A DNA stretch of 64,000 nucleotides, from NCBI GenBank assembly GCA_964036045.1, contig OZ038380.1, positions 64,836,591 through 64,900,590 of the forward strand, in the 5' to 3' direction. The position numbers and the translations under genes were made by a program. This DNA comes from Eutreptiella sp. 'Long Island Sound 2002' (taxonomy: Eukaryota; Euglenozoa; Euglenophyceae; Eutreptiales; Eutreptiaceae). Each line of letters starts with the position of its first letter. Position 1 is the stretch's first letter. The notes under the pieces were generated by a model. That model was not told the DNA's origin. It searched no databases and saw only the letters and a program-made list of their open reading frames with translations. This document shows, piece after piece, positions 49,386 to 57,710 of the stretch.

Positions 49386-51206
49386 TCAAGGAGATGACAT
49401 GTGGGATGAAGGTGAGGACGATTGACAGTTTGTGCTCGCGGGGGAGGGGGGGGCTGGTGCAAAGTACCTTGGTATGCGGGGAGAAGGGGTAGGAGCGGGG
49501 GCAGAGGTGGCGAGTGGGGGGGCTGGTTGAGGGGGGGGGGGGAGGTTGAGCATGCCTCGGATTGTGAGCTGCCTTTTGGGGGGCGGGGGCTCAAGCTGAG
49601 GTCGGCTCGCGGCAGTGCGTGTCAGCGATAGAGGCCGGACTGGCTTAGGGGGCTGGCGGGCGTGTTTTCGAGCCTTGGCGTGTGCCGCCGGGGAAGGGGG
49701 GCGGGGGCGCTTTGAAGGCTTGTGTGCAACCTTGTCTGGGAGGGGGGACGGAGGGTGGTAGTTCGCAGGGGGGCACTGTTGGGCGGTGTGTGACATGCTG
49801 CAAGGCAACCAGGGGCGCCCTCATGGGTTTGGGCCGATTGGGGGGGTGAGGGGGGCTGGGGGGGGGGGGGTCGTTAAGCCATTCCAGCGTGCGGTACAGA
49901 GCATCGAGGAGCAGGGGAACACGAGCCATCAGGGCAACTTTTAGGTCATGACAGTGTGCTGGTTTTCTTCGGCCGGAGGGGGGGGTTGTGAGTTTCGTGT
50001 ACAGGGACATAGGGATCAGCCCCCGGACGAAATTGCGCCTCTCCCCGACGTGTGTGGTCGCGGACCACCATTGGGACACCACTGTGGCAAAGGGGGTGCG
50101 CCAGCATTGGATGTAGGTCTGCACCAGGTGTTCGCATGTCGGGCAGTGTGAGACGAAAGAGACACCATCCATTGAGTGTGGGTCGGGGTAAGCATGGCAA
50201 TGGCGAAGGCGCAAGTCGTCGTGGAAAGCAAACCGCGCCATGTTGAAGTTTCCGGAGGACCACTTGAAAGGGACGCCTTTGAACCATGAAGTGGGGTTGT
50301 AAAAATGGAAGCTGTATGGCACGTGGATGTTTTCGTGTTTCTGGCGAGGGAGAAGGTGCTTGATTGAGGAGGTAGTTAGTTTGTGTATGACGGGGAAGGG
50401 GCCTCTGGATATGCACCCTATTGGGGGCTGGATGGATTGAAGAGAGTATTCCCACGTGCCAGCTGGTGAGCGCGATGGGAGGCCTGGGGGGCTGCTCGGA
50501 GAGAGGACAGTGAGGACGTGGAGGTTGTCCCCTAGTACGGCAAAGGTGAGGTGTGGGTGAGACGCAAGGGCCGGTCGTAGGAACATAATAGCCGCCCAGA
50601 ACTCTGATCTCTCTGAGGACTGGGACGGGGACGTTTGGCACAGGACCCATCCCGAGCCGTTCGGGAAAAACAGGGTGGCTGCAGACCCGTAGCTCAAGTC
50701 GCCCGCCCAGCCATCCAGGTACACCCAGGTCGTGTCGGGGGACGATGTGTGGAGGAGGGCAAGGGCTGCATCACAACCTCACTCTTTGAGCTCATCGGAG
50801 TCAAGGGAGTGAGGTTCATCTGGGAGCTGGTATAGCTCGCCATGCAGTGACGAACAAAGTAGAACTCCGCCGTGTGGCCCAGGATAGGGGGGGGTTGAAG
50901 ATGTACTCTTGGGGGTGGAGAAGGGGGGGGTAAGCAGTTTGTGGCGTCCTGCCAGTTTGGGGCGAACAGAAATGGCTGGGTTTTGAAAGGTGTACTCTTT
51001 TTCGTTGCGGTGTAGGCCAGGGTCTTTGATGGTGTGGGTGGTGCCATCCAAGAACTGGAGTGTGGCCGATCCTGTGTGTACTCCCGTGACTGTTGCTAGG
51101 TGGGATCCTAGGTCTTGGGGTGTTTCTTTTGGCCGGTTGCCAAATTTGCTGTATTGTGGTGCTGGTTTGGTGGCTAGGAACCGGACCTGGACTTTTTCTT
51201 TCGTGG
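49386..51206 (-). pseudogene. Second LINE-like copy: RNase H, zinc knuckle, Pro-rich tail
   Basis: Read from 51206 down. A pre-RNase H region has GRHKL and ends in HGELYQLPDEPHS. After a frameshift near 50780, an RNase H start reads YLDGWAGDLSYGSAATLFF near 50715, then SERSEFWAAIMFL and FAVLGDNLHVLTVL. The GH/GN block is missing, so the domain is shortened. Next come IHKLTTSSIKHLLPR (compare LHKFKVQQFRHLLPR in the first copy), a CPTC...C cluster near 50130, and a Pro-rich tail. Domain order matches 1-1751. It appears to be interrupted upstream by element T. Confidence 0.7.
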
Positions 51207-51210
51207 GGAA
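51207..51210 (+). repeat. Possible 4-bp target duplication, left, of element T
   Basis: GGAA, also found at 57707-57710 after the right terminus. Too short to be decisive. Confidence 0.35.
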
Positions 51211-51239
51211 CTTAGGCGGCTCAAGTTGCATGGCCAAAA
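51211..51239 (+). repeat. Left terminal inverted repeat of element T
   Basis: Begins CTTAGGCGGCTCAAGTTGCA; the reverse complement of 57677-57705 with two transitions. Confidence 0.65.
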
Positions 51240-51560
51240 TGCGTGCAAAACTGCCTCTCCACGACACTGCGAAAAAATAGTCCTTTCGGGGGGGACCTAA
51301 AACACAAGTACCAAAGGTCCTGTGAAAAGCAATTAACTGGTCCATTTTCCTTTATTTTCAAAAAAACCGACTGCCCAGGAAAATGATTTTTTTCCACCGA
51401 AATGAAGGTCTTTGTTTGGGAAAACCACGACTTTTTGTTTCCTATACCACTTATGCTTTGCAAAAAAAACACCCATGAGCTTTCAATCTTTTGAAAAACC
51501 AGTTTTCGAAAACCATGTTGCACGCTGCACAACAGGAAGCATTTTTTGGCACCCCTTCTT

Positions 51561-51578
51561 TGCGAAAGGCCTCGCGCA
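51561..51578 (+). repeat. Palindrome copy 1
   Basis: TGCGAAAGGCCTCGCGCA; two differences from the consensus TGCGCGAGGCCTCGCGCA. Confidence 0.7.
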
Positions 51579-51668
51579 AACACCAAGACAACAGCGCAAT
51601 AAAATGCATCACAGAGAAAAATGTGCTGCACAAGGTGACAGCATAAAGGTCGTCAAAAAGGAATGCAT

Positions 51669-51686
51669 AGCGCGAGCCCTCGCGCA
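51669..51686 (+). repeat. Palindrome copy 2, just after the ParB-like gene stop
   Basis: AGCGCGAGCCCTCGCGCA; 26 bases downstream of the gene's TAA. Confidence 0.75.
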
Positions 51687-51815
51687 TAATATATCAGAAC
51701 AAGCGAAGGAATTACTTTTTCTTCGGAACAGTTTGCATCTTAGAACCCAATGCCTTAGCAACAGACGTCTTACCATTAGGGGGTGGCTTTGCGGGCTCGC
51801 TTCTTGGTTGGGACT

Positions 51816-51905
51816 GACAGGCTGCCTGCTTGAATGGAGCTCGGGCCCCGGTTTCCTCGGACCTCGGCTTCGCTGCCACTTTCTTCGCTGCCTTGCCCTG
51901 GGAGA
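51816..51905 (+). repeat. Hairpin arm 1 in the ParB-like gene
   Basis: 90 bases, reverse complement of 52048-52137 with one mismatch. In the gene frame this arm encodes the Lys/Ala-rich tail. Confidence 0.9.
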
Positions 51906-52047
51906 CCTGCGCTTCCTCCTCCTCTTCTTCCTCGCTCTCCTCCTCTTCATTCCAATCGCTCTCGTCGGATTCTGCACCGGTAACCGACTTCGCTGCCTGA
52001 GGCTTGGAGGCAGTCTCTTTCTCCTTGGGGGCTGGTTTTTTGAATGT

Positions 52048-52137
52048 TCTCCCAGGGCAAGGCAGCGAAGAAAGTGGCAGCGAAGCCGAGGTCCGAGGAA
52101 ACCGGGGCCCGAGCTCCATTCAAGCAGCCAGCCTGTC
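52048..52137 (-). repeat. Hairpin arm 2 in the ParB-like gene
   Basis: Inverted copy of 51816-51905 separated by a 142-base loop. It interrupts the coding frame. Confidence 0.9.
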
Positions 52138-52636
52138 CCTTGGGAGATGGTTCCCCACCAGTAGACTTCCGCTTTGCAGGGGCCAGTGCTTCTGCAGCTT
52201 GACCTTTCTCAACAGTCTGTTCCTCCTTCAGCAACAACGCATCAGAACCCACCTTGTCATCGCAAGCCCAAAGGGGAATACCACGGTTTGACCAGTTGGC
52301 CTGCTGGTCTCAATCACCAGACGCGTCCAGTTTCGACCCTTGTGTCAATACGTGGTTCAACTGAGTCTGCACTCTGTTGACCCAATCAGAGAGATTCTCA
52401 GAGGTAACACCAAGAAGGTACATGCGAGAATCCAGCTCGATGGACGCGATCTTGCACACCAGATCCGGCTGATGATCAATGAACAGCAATGCAGGCTTGA
52501 AGCTCTTATCCTGCTTCAGGTAAAAGAGGTGAGTGTCGAAATACCACATAACCGTCGTTATCGGAAGGTGACCGCCAAATTCAACAGGATCCATCTTCCC
52601 TACTTGGGTAGGTCCAAACGTCAGATATTTCGCAAT

Positions 52637-52703
52637 CTGCAATGAGGGAGAAGTTATTGCGCGAGGCCCCGCGCAAAGAGCGGACGTAATGAGGGAATTA
52701 TAC
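52637..52703 (-). other. Intron 4 of the ParB-like gene (67 bp)
   Basis: GTATAA donor and ATTGCAG acceptor; phase 0. Carries palindrome copy 3 ending 21 bases before the acceptor. Confidence 0.75.
52658..52675 (+). repeat. Palindrome copy 3, inside intron 4
   Basis: TGCGCGAGGCCCCGCGCA; one difference from consensus. Confidence 0.8.
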
Positions 52704-53404
52704 CTTTCTCGACCAGCTATCCGGTGACGAAATCAGCAACTAGCGAACGTCAAAAGTTGTAGGATCCCCTGCAGGCTTCGGTTTGACTGGCCAACTGAAG
52801 ATGGGAACACGAAACATGTTAGCCATGCGCGGCACGTTGAAATCATCGTTGAGACGCCTATCTGTTTCCGTCTCCAGCACCTCGAACATGTTGTCAACAA
52901 CAGTTTGAGAGCCGCAGATAAGGGTATCGGCACGCGCCATCTCTTCATACAGCCAGGCTGGGCACATCATCTCAGGAGCAAGATGTTCAAATATGTCGCC
53001 GTTGATGACAATCAGGTTCTTGTCAATCTCAATAAACCGCGTCGGGGGATCGTGGGCCAACGCTGCAGTTCGGGTCGCCTTAATTGTGATAGTTTGACTT
53101 GACAGTAATGGATGCTGCTGTTCCACTGTCTTGAAGTCACCAGTAACGCCAGCAGCTCGGGGGACCACACGGCTCTTGGTAGGCTCTTGACCCAGGAGTT
53201 TTTGGACGTTGAGGATTTTCAGGGGGGCGGGTTTGCCTTTCTCTGCCACCTGCCACAGTGGTGCGCGAATCATGGATTTCCATGCCGGCCATGGACCGCG
53301 ACTTTTGCCTTCAGGTTCCCGCCAATAGCTCCATGTACCAAGAGTCACCTTCAGGGCAGGCCTTCCAAGTGCAGCAACCTCTTTGCGGGTCCGCATGTCT
53401 TTGG

Positions 53405-53478
53405 CTAAAGAACAGAAATGGAGAAAGTGCGGTGCACCAATGCAGAAGCGGAACCCACGTCGCGTCGATGGTACACAC
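53405..53478 (-). other. Intron 3 of the ParB-like gene (74 bp)
   Basis: GTGTGT donor and CTTTAG acceptor; phase 1. No palindrome. Confidence 0.75.
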
Positions 53479-53776
53479 CTTTCTCAGATTGAACGTACTG
53501 GCCGTTGTGCGGGTGGTTCAGATGCATTGAGACCCACTGGTCAAGGATGATGTCGTCAATCGAATTCGGCAAGGATTTAAGGGTTGTTTTTTCTTCCTGC
53601 ATCACTTCTGCCACTTTCTTGTAGAACTCCGGCAACAGGATCCCGTCCAGTTTCTTCAGCGCATTCTTCGTGACTTTCTCCCCTTTGTCGTGGAACTTCT
53701 GCAGACCTTTCACAGCTTCCGGACCAGCATAGTAGGCAAACGTCATAAAACCTTTCCACAATTTATACCTTTTGTC

Positions 53777-53847
53777 CTGAAAGTGACAACGTTATGCGCG
53801 AGGCCTCGCGCAACGAACAGCATCGAAACAACGATTAATGAACATAC
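53777..53847 (-). other. Intron 2 of the ParB-like gene (71 bp)
   Basis: GTATGTT donor and TTTCAG acceptor; phase 0. Carries palindrome copy 4 ending about 18 bases before the acceptor. Confidence 0.8.
53795..53812 (+). repeat. Palindrome copy 4, inside intron 2
   Basis: TGCGCGAGGCCTCGCGCA; a perfect 18-bp palindrome. Confidence 0.85.
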
Positions 53848-54209
53848 AAATTGACCAGGCTGCTTCAGTTCAGCGGTTGGAACCAGGGCACTCATCTGCA
53901 CAGCATCCACAATGGCGATCTTGAGATTGCTGTACGTGTCAGCCAGGCCTCGCCGCCGCTGATCTTCAACACATCGAATGAGGTTATCTGCTGCCTCATA
54001 CAGCGGTATTGGCTCAACGTCCTGGGCGCTTCCTTGTGCTTGTCCCGCGAGCTTTGCACGGAAGACCCACGGTGTCGTAGGCTTCAGAATATCGGCGATG
54101 CATGTAGTATGCCACTACTGCAGATCCAGACACGCTGTGCGTCGCTTCTCCCAAATCTTCGCAATCGCTTCCACGCTGTGCTGTCCAGAAACACACCAAT
54201 AATCGCCAT

Positions 54210-54282
54210 CTGCAAATATGAGACACATCTATGCACGAGGGCTCGCGCAACGAGAAGAGCGAACAGTCGGTTGGCAACATAC
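54210..54282 (-). other. Intron 1 of the ParB-like gene (73 bp)
   Basis: GTATGTT donor and TTGCAG acceptor; phase 1. Splicing joins WEDN to GDYWCVSGQH. Carries palindrome copy 5. Confidence 0.8.
54232..54249 (+). repeat. Palindrome copy 5, inside intron 1
   Basis: TGCACGAGGGCTCGCGCA; two differences from consensus. Confidence 0.8.
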
Positions 54283-54775
54283 TATTATCTTCCCAGAGAA
54301 CGACGTGTAATGGGCCTGTTGGCGGTGCTGCTTCGAGTGACTCAATACGCTTCTGCAGTAACTTGGTATCTTTCCGTCTAATCTGCCCCTTTGTCTTCTC
54401 CTGGTCAATTCTCACGTTGTCCAGCTCAACCTCCACCTGCCTCCCATCTGGTTTCAGGTGGTCCTCGATGTCAGTACCCAAGGTTAAGCCAGGATCTGGT
54501 TTATCCTTCTTCTTACGCCCCTTCTTTGGTGTTCCAGCCTCCGATCCTGAGGTCCCAGGGTCGTAGTGGGTATCTTCTTGTTCCTCGGCTGTTTTTTTGG
54601 CGGGGCTTGCCATTCTACGATTAGGAGAAAGCCTGTATTGAAGGAAACATAACATTGAAAGGGGTTAAAATTGTCGTCGATAATGCATATGTGAGGTGCT
54701 CTCAGCGAATACGAGTACAGTATGGTTGAGAATGCAAAACTGAAGGGGCTCGGCACTGTTTTTGACTGTCAACCT

Positions 54776-54793
54776 TGCGCGAGGCCTCACGCA
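54776..54793 (+). repeat. Palindrome copy 6, between the two element T genes
   Basis: TGCGCGAGGCCTCACGCA; one difference. Confidence 0.8.
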
Positions 54794-54830
54794 AGAGAGA
54801 GGGTGTACTAACCTGTTGTTTCATGCTGTT

Positions 54831-54848
54831 TGCGCGAGGCCTTGCGCA
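54831..54848 (+). repeat. Palindrome copy 7, between the two element T genes
   Basis: TGCGCGAGGCCTTGCGCA; one difference. Lies just downstream of a coding-like extension (EEQREADTLRNVRRRLENMQ) of the upstream gene. Confidence 0.8.
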
Positions 54849-54935
54849 TCACTGCATGTTCTCTAATCTTCTTCGAACGTTTCGCAGCGTGTCGGCCTCT
54901 CTCTGTTCCTCCAACACACTGCGTTGGGGGATCAG

Positions 54936-56798
54936 CTACGACAGTTTTCGCTTAAAACCAGCCTTAAGCGACCCCTGCTGCGTTAGCACCAGCAACACAG
55001 ACACAAGGACTTGTTTGTAGTGGTTAGAACCCTTTGGAATTACAAGAGACGGTGGAAAGTTAGGTACACCCCTGCGTGGCCAATGCGCCTGAATTGTACA
55101 AGTAGGCTCAGCACACCACCTAACCCAAGGCACATATACACGCTCTGCGTTCAAGTAAGCAGTTAGCCGCTGACGCACGGAATGGACAAAGGAATTGGGG
55201 TTTTTGCAGACGTTCACCCTGTGACCTACTTTGCGGATAGTGATGAGATGATACCGATCGTCAACATCTTCAATGGTTACTGCACCTCTGTTTTGGCCCT
55301 TCTTTGTCACAAGGCTGGAAAGCAGACTTTCACAAAACTCCTCGGCAAAAGCCTGTCCAGGCATGGCTGTGTGCCATGCAGTGTGGCAAAATAGCGCAGT
55401 TGCAACAGTGCGTTCGTATTTCAAAAGTGTGTTCCCCATGTTCAAACAGTCTAACAAACACATAACAATCTGCAATCCCTCAGAAGCAAAAACACCCGTG
55501 GTGGCCGTCTCCCCGGCCCAATTGCACTGTCTAACGAGGTGACCTAGATATAGTAACATAGGACAGTATTGTGTCAACAGAACCTGTATGGCCTTACACA
55601 CAGCGTAACGGAGGCGTCCTCGCCAATTTACAGGACGTGCCAGCCCAGGGGAATGACATTTTCTGTTAAGGCGCCGTATGTGGGGGCCCATACCCAACAG
55701 CAGTGCGCCAACAGTTATCTCCATTGTGATCAGCTTGGGAAAACAGGGGACTGTGTCACCGCTGCGCAACAAACCTTTACGGAAGAAAGTCACGACCGGC
55801 CAAAATGAGCGAAATGTTTGTGTAACGCAAAACTTGTACGCGTGCCGGAAACCATACAATGTAGGGTGTGACGGCAAGAAAAGCCGGACATTCCAGCCCG
55901 TTGTTTTTTCACTGTACATCATCTTACAAATGCGGTAATGGATGTTCTCATCACATAAAACAGGCACGACTGGTCGAGTGTGCTGCGCCAAGTCCCTAGT
56001 GAATTGCAATAGATTAAGCAGCGAGACGTTGCCGCTCACCTTTTACTTACTTGGACAAAGGGGTCGCCAATGTGGTCTCCTGGCAGGTACAGGGCGAATA
56101 ATGTCAAGCGGCGCCCTAATGTTTCGAACAACAGGTCGCGTGCTTGCAAATCCTAGATCACGCAGGATACGTGCAAATGTTCCCTCAGTGTTCCCGAGCA
56201 TGCGTGCAACAACATAAACACGCCGTTCAAGCTCTTCCAGGCTAGGATGACCATGCCAGTAGCGCGGTGCATCCTTCAGTAGCAACACAGTCAACGCTGT
56301 TGCATTCAGGCTTTTGTCCTTCTTGTCAGGATTTGTGGTAAACTGTTTGTTGTACCAGTTGTCCATCCACAACACAACCCACTGTTGGTTTTTTTTGTTC
56401 CATGTAGTCTGTAACCTGACTGCGGCCTTCTCCTTCAGCGAAGGTGCGCTGTATCGCGCCAGACCTGACCTTGCTAAAATGCGACGCTGCGCCCTACTTC
56501 CCTCTACCGCAACAACTGACTTTGGTCTTCCCTGGTATCGAACTGCGCGGTGGCGCATCAGCAAATAAAGGCGCCAGGCCTCCTCTATCAAAACACCAAC
56601 CAATCTCTTGCCTTCTGCCAAAATCGCCTTTTCAACGCTGCAATGCGTCCGTTCATTTTTGCGCAGACGCGAAAAAAACACAAACAACAATTGCGCGCCC
56701 TCGTCCCCCTGTTTTAGCCCTTCCCACAGTTCTTCTGCCGTGTGGTACGGCGGTTCCTCTGAGCAGACATCGCGGAAACCTCCAGATGCTGCGGCCAC
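54936..56798 (-). pseudogene. Element T DDE-like protein, candidate transposase
   Basis: One frame of about 620 codons broken by a single TAA (56045-56043, reads RPLCPSK-stop-KVSGNV). The start is uncertain: the frame opens upstream near 56840, close to an AG that may be a splice acceptor. Conserved-looking blocks: VVLWMDNWYNK near residue 146, VVPVLCDENIHYRICKMMY near 283, HPTLYGFRHAYKF, LVRQCNWAG and QAFAEEFCESLL near 488. The two Asp blocks and the late Glu block could supply a DDE catalytic triad; this is inference. Beyond the stop TAG 54938-54936, a coiled-coil-like stretch continues in frame to about 54855. I cannot name the family with confidence. Confidence 0.5.
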
Positions 56799-57205
56799 TG
56801 TCTTTTCGCAGGGGCACTGTTGCTGTGAAGAATAATTGCGTAACTGTATCTACGTAAAGATCGCTGTTTAAAAAACTTTCTTGATTTGAAACATCAACCT
56901 GTCACACAGTTTTTGCGCAACCAATTATTATGTGATTCGCTTGTCGCATGCAGCATTTTCGGTTAACTGTAACAGTCTGGTGATCCCACATTTTACTAGT
57001 TAATCCTGATTGCGGTAGCCAGTTGCGGCGCGCTACCATCGCTGTTTGGCAGTGAAGCCAGCGGTGACCACAGTATGAAAACTGGAGATGCCGGCAGGAC
57101 CTATATGGGCGCCCATGCAGCAGCGCCGCATCAGGGGAATGCACATGCTGTGTAGTTGGTGGATCTGTTCCATTTTTGGTTTCTATGAGCGCTTATGACC
57201 TCCAT

Positions 57206-57223
57206 TGCGCGAGGCCTCGCGCA
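57206..57223 (+). repeat. Palindrome copy 8
   Basis: TGCGCGAGGCCTCGCGCA; perfect. Confidence 0.85.
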
Positions 57224-57263
57224 ATGATCACCGAAACTGTAATGTTTCTCATGCGCCGTTCCA

Positions 57264-57281
57264 TGCGCGAGGCCTCGCGCT
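57264..57281 (+). repeat. Palindrome copy 9
   Basis: TGCGCGAGGCCTCGCGCT; one end base differs. Confidence 0.85.
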
Positions 57282-57491
57282 TGAAACTGCAGTTTGTTCC
57301 AGAACGTTCATACTTTCCAAGATTCTTGGGTACACCATTATTGCAGTTTATTCGCTAATAGATCCATCTCTATCAAGCAAGCCTGATAATGGTACTAAGT
57401 TATGTGTATAAATACGACAGGGTTCCATTTTTCGACAACCTGCCTAATGCGCCGTGCTGTAGCACATTAACCTGACACAAATGAACGTCTT

Positions 57492-57509
57492 TGCGCGAGG
57501 CCCCGCGCA
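57492..57509 (+). repeat. Palindrome copy 10
   Basis: TGCGCGAGGCCCCGCGCA; one difference. Confidence 0.85.
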
Positions 57510-57676
57510 AGGAATGGTCACCAAACAATACTTTTCCCTGTCTCGCCCATGGGACACGTCATTCTTATAGAAATATTTATTCCGCCATACTTGTTTGCGA
57601 CGGTTCTAAAATATCCATCAAAACAACTTTTTTTGATGCCTTTGGAAACCTGTCATTTTCCTACCTTTTCCTTCGT

Positions 57677-57705
57677 TTTTGACCATGCAACTTGAGCCAC
57701 CTAAG
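57677..57705 (-). repeat. Right terminal inverted repeat of element T
   Basis: On the minus strand begins CTTAGGTGGCTCAAGTTGCA; 27 of 29 bases match the left terminus. Confidence 0.65.
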
Positions 57706-57706
57706 A

Positions 57707-57710
57707 GGAA
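57707..57710 (+). repeat. Possible 4-bp target duplication, right, of element T
   Basis: GGAA, same as 51207-51210. Confidence 0.35.

Follow-up and report, generated by a model that had tools for sequence, protein, structure and literature searches.

The segment of 6495 bp at 51211..57705 of the window (the whole stretch of 64,000 nucleotides analysed here, from contig OZ038380.1 of Eutreptiella sp. 'Long Island Sound 2002') is a cut-and-paste-type DNA transposon bounded by inverted repeats. It carries two genes, a putative transposase (gene 1) and a putative partner protein (gene 2), together with an array of an 18-bp palindrome, TGCGCGAGGCCTCGCGCA, that an earlier sequence-only reading of the window had overlooked. 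On balance we read the segment as a degenerate two-gene DNA transposon that makes a 5-bp target duplication and whose putative gene 2 partner would dock on the palindromes, thereby aiding the ends or marking the element. The window is part of a 2.28-Gb eukaryotic assembly, against which the genome-wide searches were run.

The 29-bp inverted repeats of the sequence-only reading are present at 51211-51239 and 57677-57705 and match at 27 of 29 positions, with the right limit at 57705 and not at 57706. Other segments with the same termini are present in the assembly, dispersed and with target duplications. A search with the first 1001 bases of the element gave 1247 candidates, and in all of the best 40 that were scored (window copy included) the match begins at query base 1 or 2. 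We retrieved and compared 20 copies of this family, family 1: 10 are near end-to-end, with extra sequence in L019; L011 is internally deleted and keeps both ends; and the remaining 9 are cut, interrupted or rearranged, with flanks read at one end only. The terminal inverted repeats of copy L024 match at 29/29 positions. In L017 the left part of another family 1 copy breaks the sequence, which looks like a self-insertion.

Among the other family 1 copies, all 11 whose two ends were located are flanked by exact 5-bp direct repeats, and they represent 10 distinct insertions; L014 and L015, approximately 210 kb apart on C21, have identical 25-bp flanks on both sides and apparently belong to a duplicated segment. 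When family 1, a second family (family 2) and derivatives are taken together, the target duplication is perfect in 14 of the 15 distinct insertions with both flanks read. The window copy is the lone exception (GGGAA/AGGAA, 4 of 5 bases matching), and the GGAA that had been noticed at both of its ends is part of this 5-bp duplication. In L051, an empty copy of the flanking repeat, AGGAA is present once, so the left duplication, GGGAA, probably carries one substitution; a text-pattern search of L050 did not locate the empty site.

For the empty-site search the window flanks were joined with one duplication removed. This query gave 603 candidates, and the best 40 scored all run through the junction at 90-93% identity, with equal spans in 37 and a genome span 2 bases shorter in 3. 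All 40 are thus copies of the flanking repeat that lack the element and have the junction intact, demonstrating that the segment was inserted into a repeat, which the sequence-only reading took to be LINE-like. The copies, target duplications and empty sites together rule out a chance inverted repeat, and the scored repeat copies without the element rule out termini that are part of the flanking repeat family.

The two genes had been described as facing one way, and both do lie on the minus strand. Both are open in L024 and both are broken in the window copy, which has an extra 115 bp relative to L024, including a 90-bp inverted copy of 51816-51905. This inverted duplication (window 51816-52152) lies inside exon 5 of gene 2, and the 39 other scored copies break there on the query. 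The features of the window copy are as follows.

51206..51210, no strand: left target-site duplication GGGAA, from flank comparison
51211..57705, minus strand: family 1 transposon copy, 6495 bp, broken, with a 115-bp insertion relative to L024; genes on the minus strand
51211..51239, plus strand: terminal inverted repeat, 3' end of the element as transcribed
57677..57705, minus strand: terminal inverted repeat, 5' end of the element as transcribed
57706..57710, no strand: right target-site duplication AGGAA, from flank comparison
54849..56817, minus strand: gene 1, putative transposase, broken here; 661 amino acids, open in L024
54283..54613, minus strand: gene 2 exon 1 (modelled), GT-AG sites kept
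53848..54209, minus strand: gene 2 exon 2 (modelled), carries the GQH (ParB/Srx-like) motif
53479..53776, minus strand: gene 2 exon 3 (modelled)
52704..53404, minus strand: gene 2 exon 4 (modelled)
51709..52636, minus strand: gene 2 exon 5 (modelled), acidic/basic C-terminal tail
52038..52152, no strand: 115-bp insertion relative to L024, with the 90-bp inverted copy of 51816-51905
57492..57509, no strand: palindrome site 1, 5' region, 1 mismatch
57264..57281, no strand: palindrome site 2, 5' region, 1 mismatch
57206..57223, no strand: palindrome site 3, 5' region, exact
54831..54848, no strand: palindrome site 4, between the genes, 1 mismatch
54776..54793, no strand: palindrome site 5, between the genes, 1 mismatch
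54232..54249, no strand: palindrome site 6, gene 2 intron 1, 2 mismatches
53795..53812, no strand: palindrome site 7, gene 2 intron 2, exact
52658..52675, no strand: palindrome site 8, gene 2 intron 4, 1 mismatch
51669..51686, no strand: palindrome site 9, 3' region, 2 mismatches
51561..51578, no strand: palindrome site 10, 3' region, 2 mismatches

Gene 1 of L024 is a single open exon encoding 661 amino acids. The acidic blocks claimed for this protein are all found (LWxDN, LxxDENIH and a later Glu), and from them we infer that gene 1 encodes a transposase. D158 and D295 are invariant in an alignment of 21 sequences, and E372, E499 and E502 are at least 90% conserved; these residues suit a DDE enzyme without proving one, the label 'DDE' resting on the conserved acidic blocks. 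The gene 1 search found 83 proteins and a profile search found 132, of which 120 were listed, with only the approximately 8000 candidates sharing most words being scored in the protein searches. Some relatives that are 25-38% identical to P0001 are carried by contigs a few kb long that come from ENA, LOGAN or JGI, which suggests a group wider than the present genome, and we consider it probable that the gene 1 group extends beyond it. Relatives in this identity range, where aligned, are P0122, P0124, P0125, P0136 and P0155-P0167. Viral contigs yielded no relatives: 3 stretches matched a pattern and none was confirmed by tblastn, in a search from which records near the present genome may be excluded.

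Gene 2 of L024 is modelled as five exons encoding 833 amino acids, with introns of 67-74 bases. The gene 2 search found only two relatives among the candidates scored, both partial. The protein has a GQH motif, SGQHSVEA in family 1 and NGQHGTET in family 2, a stretch that may be comparable with the GxxRxxA-type motif found after a strand in ParB and ParB-Srx proteins.

A Pfam search of both proteins gave no match above the curated cut-offs, and neither protein has a PHROGs match or a convincing PDB sequence match. The PDB matches of gene 1 are all weak, with E values of at least 0.32. No transposase model was found in Pfam up to E 10 for P0001, P0077, P0086, P0122, P0155, P0158 or P0161, in searches where the filters of HMMER remove most low-scoring matches. 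For gene 2 the best-scoring Pfam entry, Myc_N (E 0.0054), lies in the charged tail and falls short of its cut-off; a methyltransferase in gene 2 was ruled out by the lack of a Pfam match. With no such match for either protein in Pfam, PHROGs or PDB, it is plausible that the element belongs to a group outside those libraries.

P0086, which is 46% identical to P0001, was used as a query for the second family and gave 8465 candidates; among the best 68 scored, 65 are without an internal stop. Family 2 copy A is 6861 bp long, with terminal repeats matching at 23/23 bases, the duplication ATTTT/ATTTT and the same two genes; the far end of copy B was not found. The gene 1 proteins of the two families are 46% identical and the gene 2 proteins 38% identical over 819 positions, and the four modelled introns of gene 2 match in place and phase. 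The termini of both families start with CTTAG. At G000:C5:3788880-3827804 four transposase genes of family 2 form two pairs approximately 6.27 kb apart, suggesting tandem elements.

The palindrome TGCGCGAGGCCTCGCGCA, searched with up to 3 mismatches, has 10 sites in the window where 0.02 are expected; all are within the element, 2 of them exact and the rest with 1-2 mismatches. The 10 full family 1 copies (window included) have 9-10 sites each at corresponding places, and family 2 has 10 sites in copy A and 8 in copy B. Six of the 10 sites in L024 and nine of the 10 in copy A are exact. The sites start at 198, 426, 484, 2876, 2931, 3475, 3912, 5049, 5923 and 6031 of the 6397 bases of L024, and at 199, 425, 610, 3110, 3167, 4146, 4519, 5298, 6341 and 6499 of the 6861 bases of copy A. 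None falls in a modelled exon in either copy (chance 5.7e-6 and 1.5e-5 if sites are independent), and those in introns occupy introns 1, 2 and 4 in family 1 and 2, 3 and 4 in family 2. When L024 and copy A were compared by whole-element BLAST the coding stretches matched, and every noncoding match (E up to 0.13) contains a palindrome. As with a parS-like site, a short palindrome is repeated on DNA bearing a gene with a ParB-like motif (9-10 sites in family 1 and 10 in copy A).

Across the genome there are 10,135 exact 18-bp cores and 0 matches to the reversed control. The core holds four CpGs. The bases adjoining it are T..A in 3,979 and G..C in 3,608 of the 10,135, together 75%, which gives the dyad two alternative symmetric extensions. 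The 50 genomic sites listed form 16 clusters, each of 6.3 kb or less, of which four are single sites: two in family 1 ends, one in a family 2 end and one in L037, an element without genes. A host-wide palindrome was considered; against it, all 4 single sites among those listed sit in elements of the present kind.

We retrieved four short clusters of the 12 multi-site ones: L046, L047, L048 and L049. L046 and L047 represent one 1.7-kb element whose termini are those of family 1 (0 mismatches), with perfect 5-bp duplications, TCAAA and ACTTA. L037, 1.2 kb long, has family 2 termini (0 and 1 mismatch) and the duplication AAGGA/AAGGA, and the duplication is therefore perfect in 3/3 derivatives. 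L049 is a family 2 end. L048 (C1:8126500-8129300) is internally deleted, approximately 80% identical to family 1 and has five palindrome sites, representing a further subfamily. Neither gene was found by tblastn of L037, L046 and L047, and when these three were compared with L024 and copy A (E 1e-3) the matches fall on termini or palindromes, apart from a single 34-bp match in L047. L037 has 3 palindrome sites and L046 and L047 have 4 each. Since derivatives without genes keep the palindromes, the sites most likely serve the DNA in cis and not only the expression of the element's own genes.

Because the array is retained where the rest of the element differs, and by elements without genes, the palindrome is most likely a cis-acting docking site; we regard it as probably a binding site and treat it as a candidate of that kind. 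The dyad symmetry suggests a dimer binder. We favour gene 2 as the source of that binder because it is a partner gene and because a transposase would not be expected to have sites so distant from the ends, and its protein is our first-choice predicted binder of the palindromes. As a partner protein, the gene 2 product would then bind DNA sequence-specifically, docking on the palindromes as a dimer. The outermost sites lie approximately 200 bp (5' end) and 345-377 bp (3' end) from the termini and may help assemble or license the ends for the transposase, and the internal sites may allow the protein to cover or mark the element as a whole, for example by bridging the ends or keeping the element open against silencing.

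The positions of the outermost sites bear on another assignment, in which the palindromes are subterminal transposase-binding sites read by gene 1 and gene 2 has some other role. In L024, copy A, L037, L046 and L047 the outermost palindrome starts 198-208 bp from one end, and in the same five elements the outermost one on the far side ends 345-377 bp from the other end; such a constant distance from the termini, in both families and three derivatives without genes, is as would be expected of sites in a synaptic complex. However, sites also occur mid-element, between the genes and in introns, where a transposase has no evident need of them, and we rate this assignment as rather unlikely. A hairpin in RNA or single-stranded DNA, acting as a splicing, transcript or strand signal in place of a duplex site, seems improbable: the predicted RNA fold has a GGCC loop (-11.5 and -14.8 kcal/mol) and 6 of the 8 modelled introns bear a palindrome, but 2 of the 8 do not, and sites are also found near both ends and in the gene-less derivatives.

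Several observations weigh against docking of the gene 2 protein on the palindromes. The binder might instead be the gene 1 protein. No homologue of known function was detected for gene 2, and the ParB/sulfiredoxin-like domain claimed for it comes down to the GQH motif: Pfam gives no ParB match for gene 2 of either family, and hhalign against four bacterial ParBs gave a probability of 0.5% away from the motif, in a comparison of weak power with only two query sequences. The exons of gene 2 were modelled from the reading frame and GT-AG sites, and its splicing is thus a model, and both ends were read for only one family 2 copy and three derivatives. Palindromes are no better conserved within family 1 than other noncoding DNA (minor alleles in nine copies, gapped columns dropped: palindromes 2.1%, other noncoding DNA 1.4%, terminal repeats 0.2%), and C-to-T or G-to-A changes account for only 23 of the 72 palindrome mismatches. 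Within-family conservation as a sign of selection on the palindromes is therefore unsupported, and the case rests on the comparisons between families and with derivatives. Variation at least equal to that of other noncoding DNA within family 1 would also suit a neutral relic or hitchhiking repeat without function. We consider this very improbable, as the core is common to families whose proteins are 38-46% identical, the noncoding matches between them all contain a palindrome, the choice of introns differs between families, and derivatives with otherwise unrelated interiors keep the palindromes.

Docking by a partner protein can be compared with several known systems. CACTA elements with TNPA likewise have two proteins, one of which binds repeated subterminal motifs; they differ from the present element in having different termini, a 3-bp duplication and motifs near the ends. 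Sola elements have a 4-bp target duplication and the present element one of 5 bp. VANDALs are Mutator-like. The Gypsy-integrase-like transposase of Ginger2 and TDD elements would be expected to match Pfam integrase models, whereas gene 1 of the present element has no Pfam integrase match. The Ginger2 elements, including TDD-4 and TDD-5, resemble ours in having terminal inverted repeats, and TDD-4 and TDD-5 make 5-bp duplications; further Ginger2 elements have terminal inverted repeats of approximately 50-180 bp and 4-bp duplications, in contrast to 23-29 bp and 5 bp here (PMC2836005).

The sequence-only reading of the segment as a transposon stands on the termini, target duplications and empty sites; its ParB assignment is reduced to a motif, and the ParB-like partner gene, for which it recognised no named superfamily, has a published precedent, Sola1-1_Ec32 of Ectocarpus (PMC12477816). 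This algal DNA transposon is described as having an accessory gene with a ParB-like region and a DNA methyltransferase, and its authors propose that proteins of this type may bind the transposon that encodes them (PMC12477816). A transposase with a partner bearing a ParB-like region is common to both, with the likeness limited to a motif in our element. Sola1-1_Ec32 is 21.5 kb long with the partner on the opposite strand and a methyltransferase domain, whereas the elements described here are 6.4-6.9 kb with the partner on the same strand and no Pfam methyltransferase match.

The best functional analogy for gene 2 is provided by the VANC proteins of the Arabidopsis VANDAL elements. In both systems an element-encoded partner acts on noncoding motifs of its own family, as demonstrated for VANC proteins and as predicted for gene 2 (PMC10398659, PMC5735166). 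By this analogy the gene 2 protein could be an anti-silencing factor that acts on own-family noncoding motifs and removes repressive marks, a tentative possibility that overlaps with the docking that we favour. VANC21 is localised at the noncoding regions of its own family, and the motifs used differ among related VANCs (PMC10398659, PMC5735166), and the four CpGs per palindrome and the two common flank types would also fit such a role. VANDAL motifs, however, are tandem repeats that differ between related families, whereas the palindromes here are dispersed and their 18-bp core is common to both families (PMC10398659, PMC5735166).

The literature searched did not contain the present transposase group, a palindrome array common to two families or the retention of such an array by derivatives without genes. 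The transposon is real, abundant and apparently of an undescribed group. Given the lack of a Pfam or PDB match and the 10,135 exact palindromes, the genome probably holds well over a thousand insertions, a number estimated from the palindrome count, that domain-based annotation would not recognise. A bolder proposal, which we find doubtful, is that this is a superfamily-level group of eukaryotic transposons with a centromere-like system, in which a ParB/Srx-motif protein and approximately 10 dispersed parS-like palindromes per element would provide for loading, spreading and bridging, so that the ends are recognised together or silencing is escaped, and in which derivatives without genes would have to keep the sites in order to be mobilised.

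With two genes, one palindrome, short inverted repeats and derivatives without genes, these elements form a compact natural system for direct tests of transposon-encoded DNA-binding partners. If the sites are loading sites for the gene 2 protein, they would link transposon biology with partition-type or anti-silencing systems.

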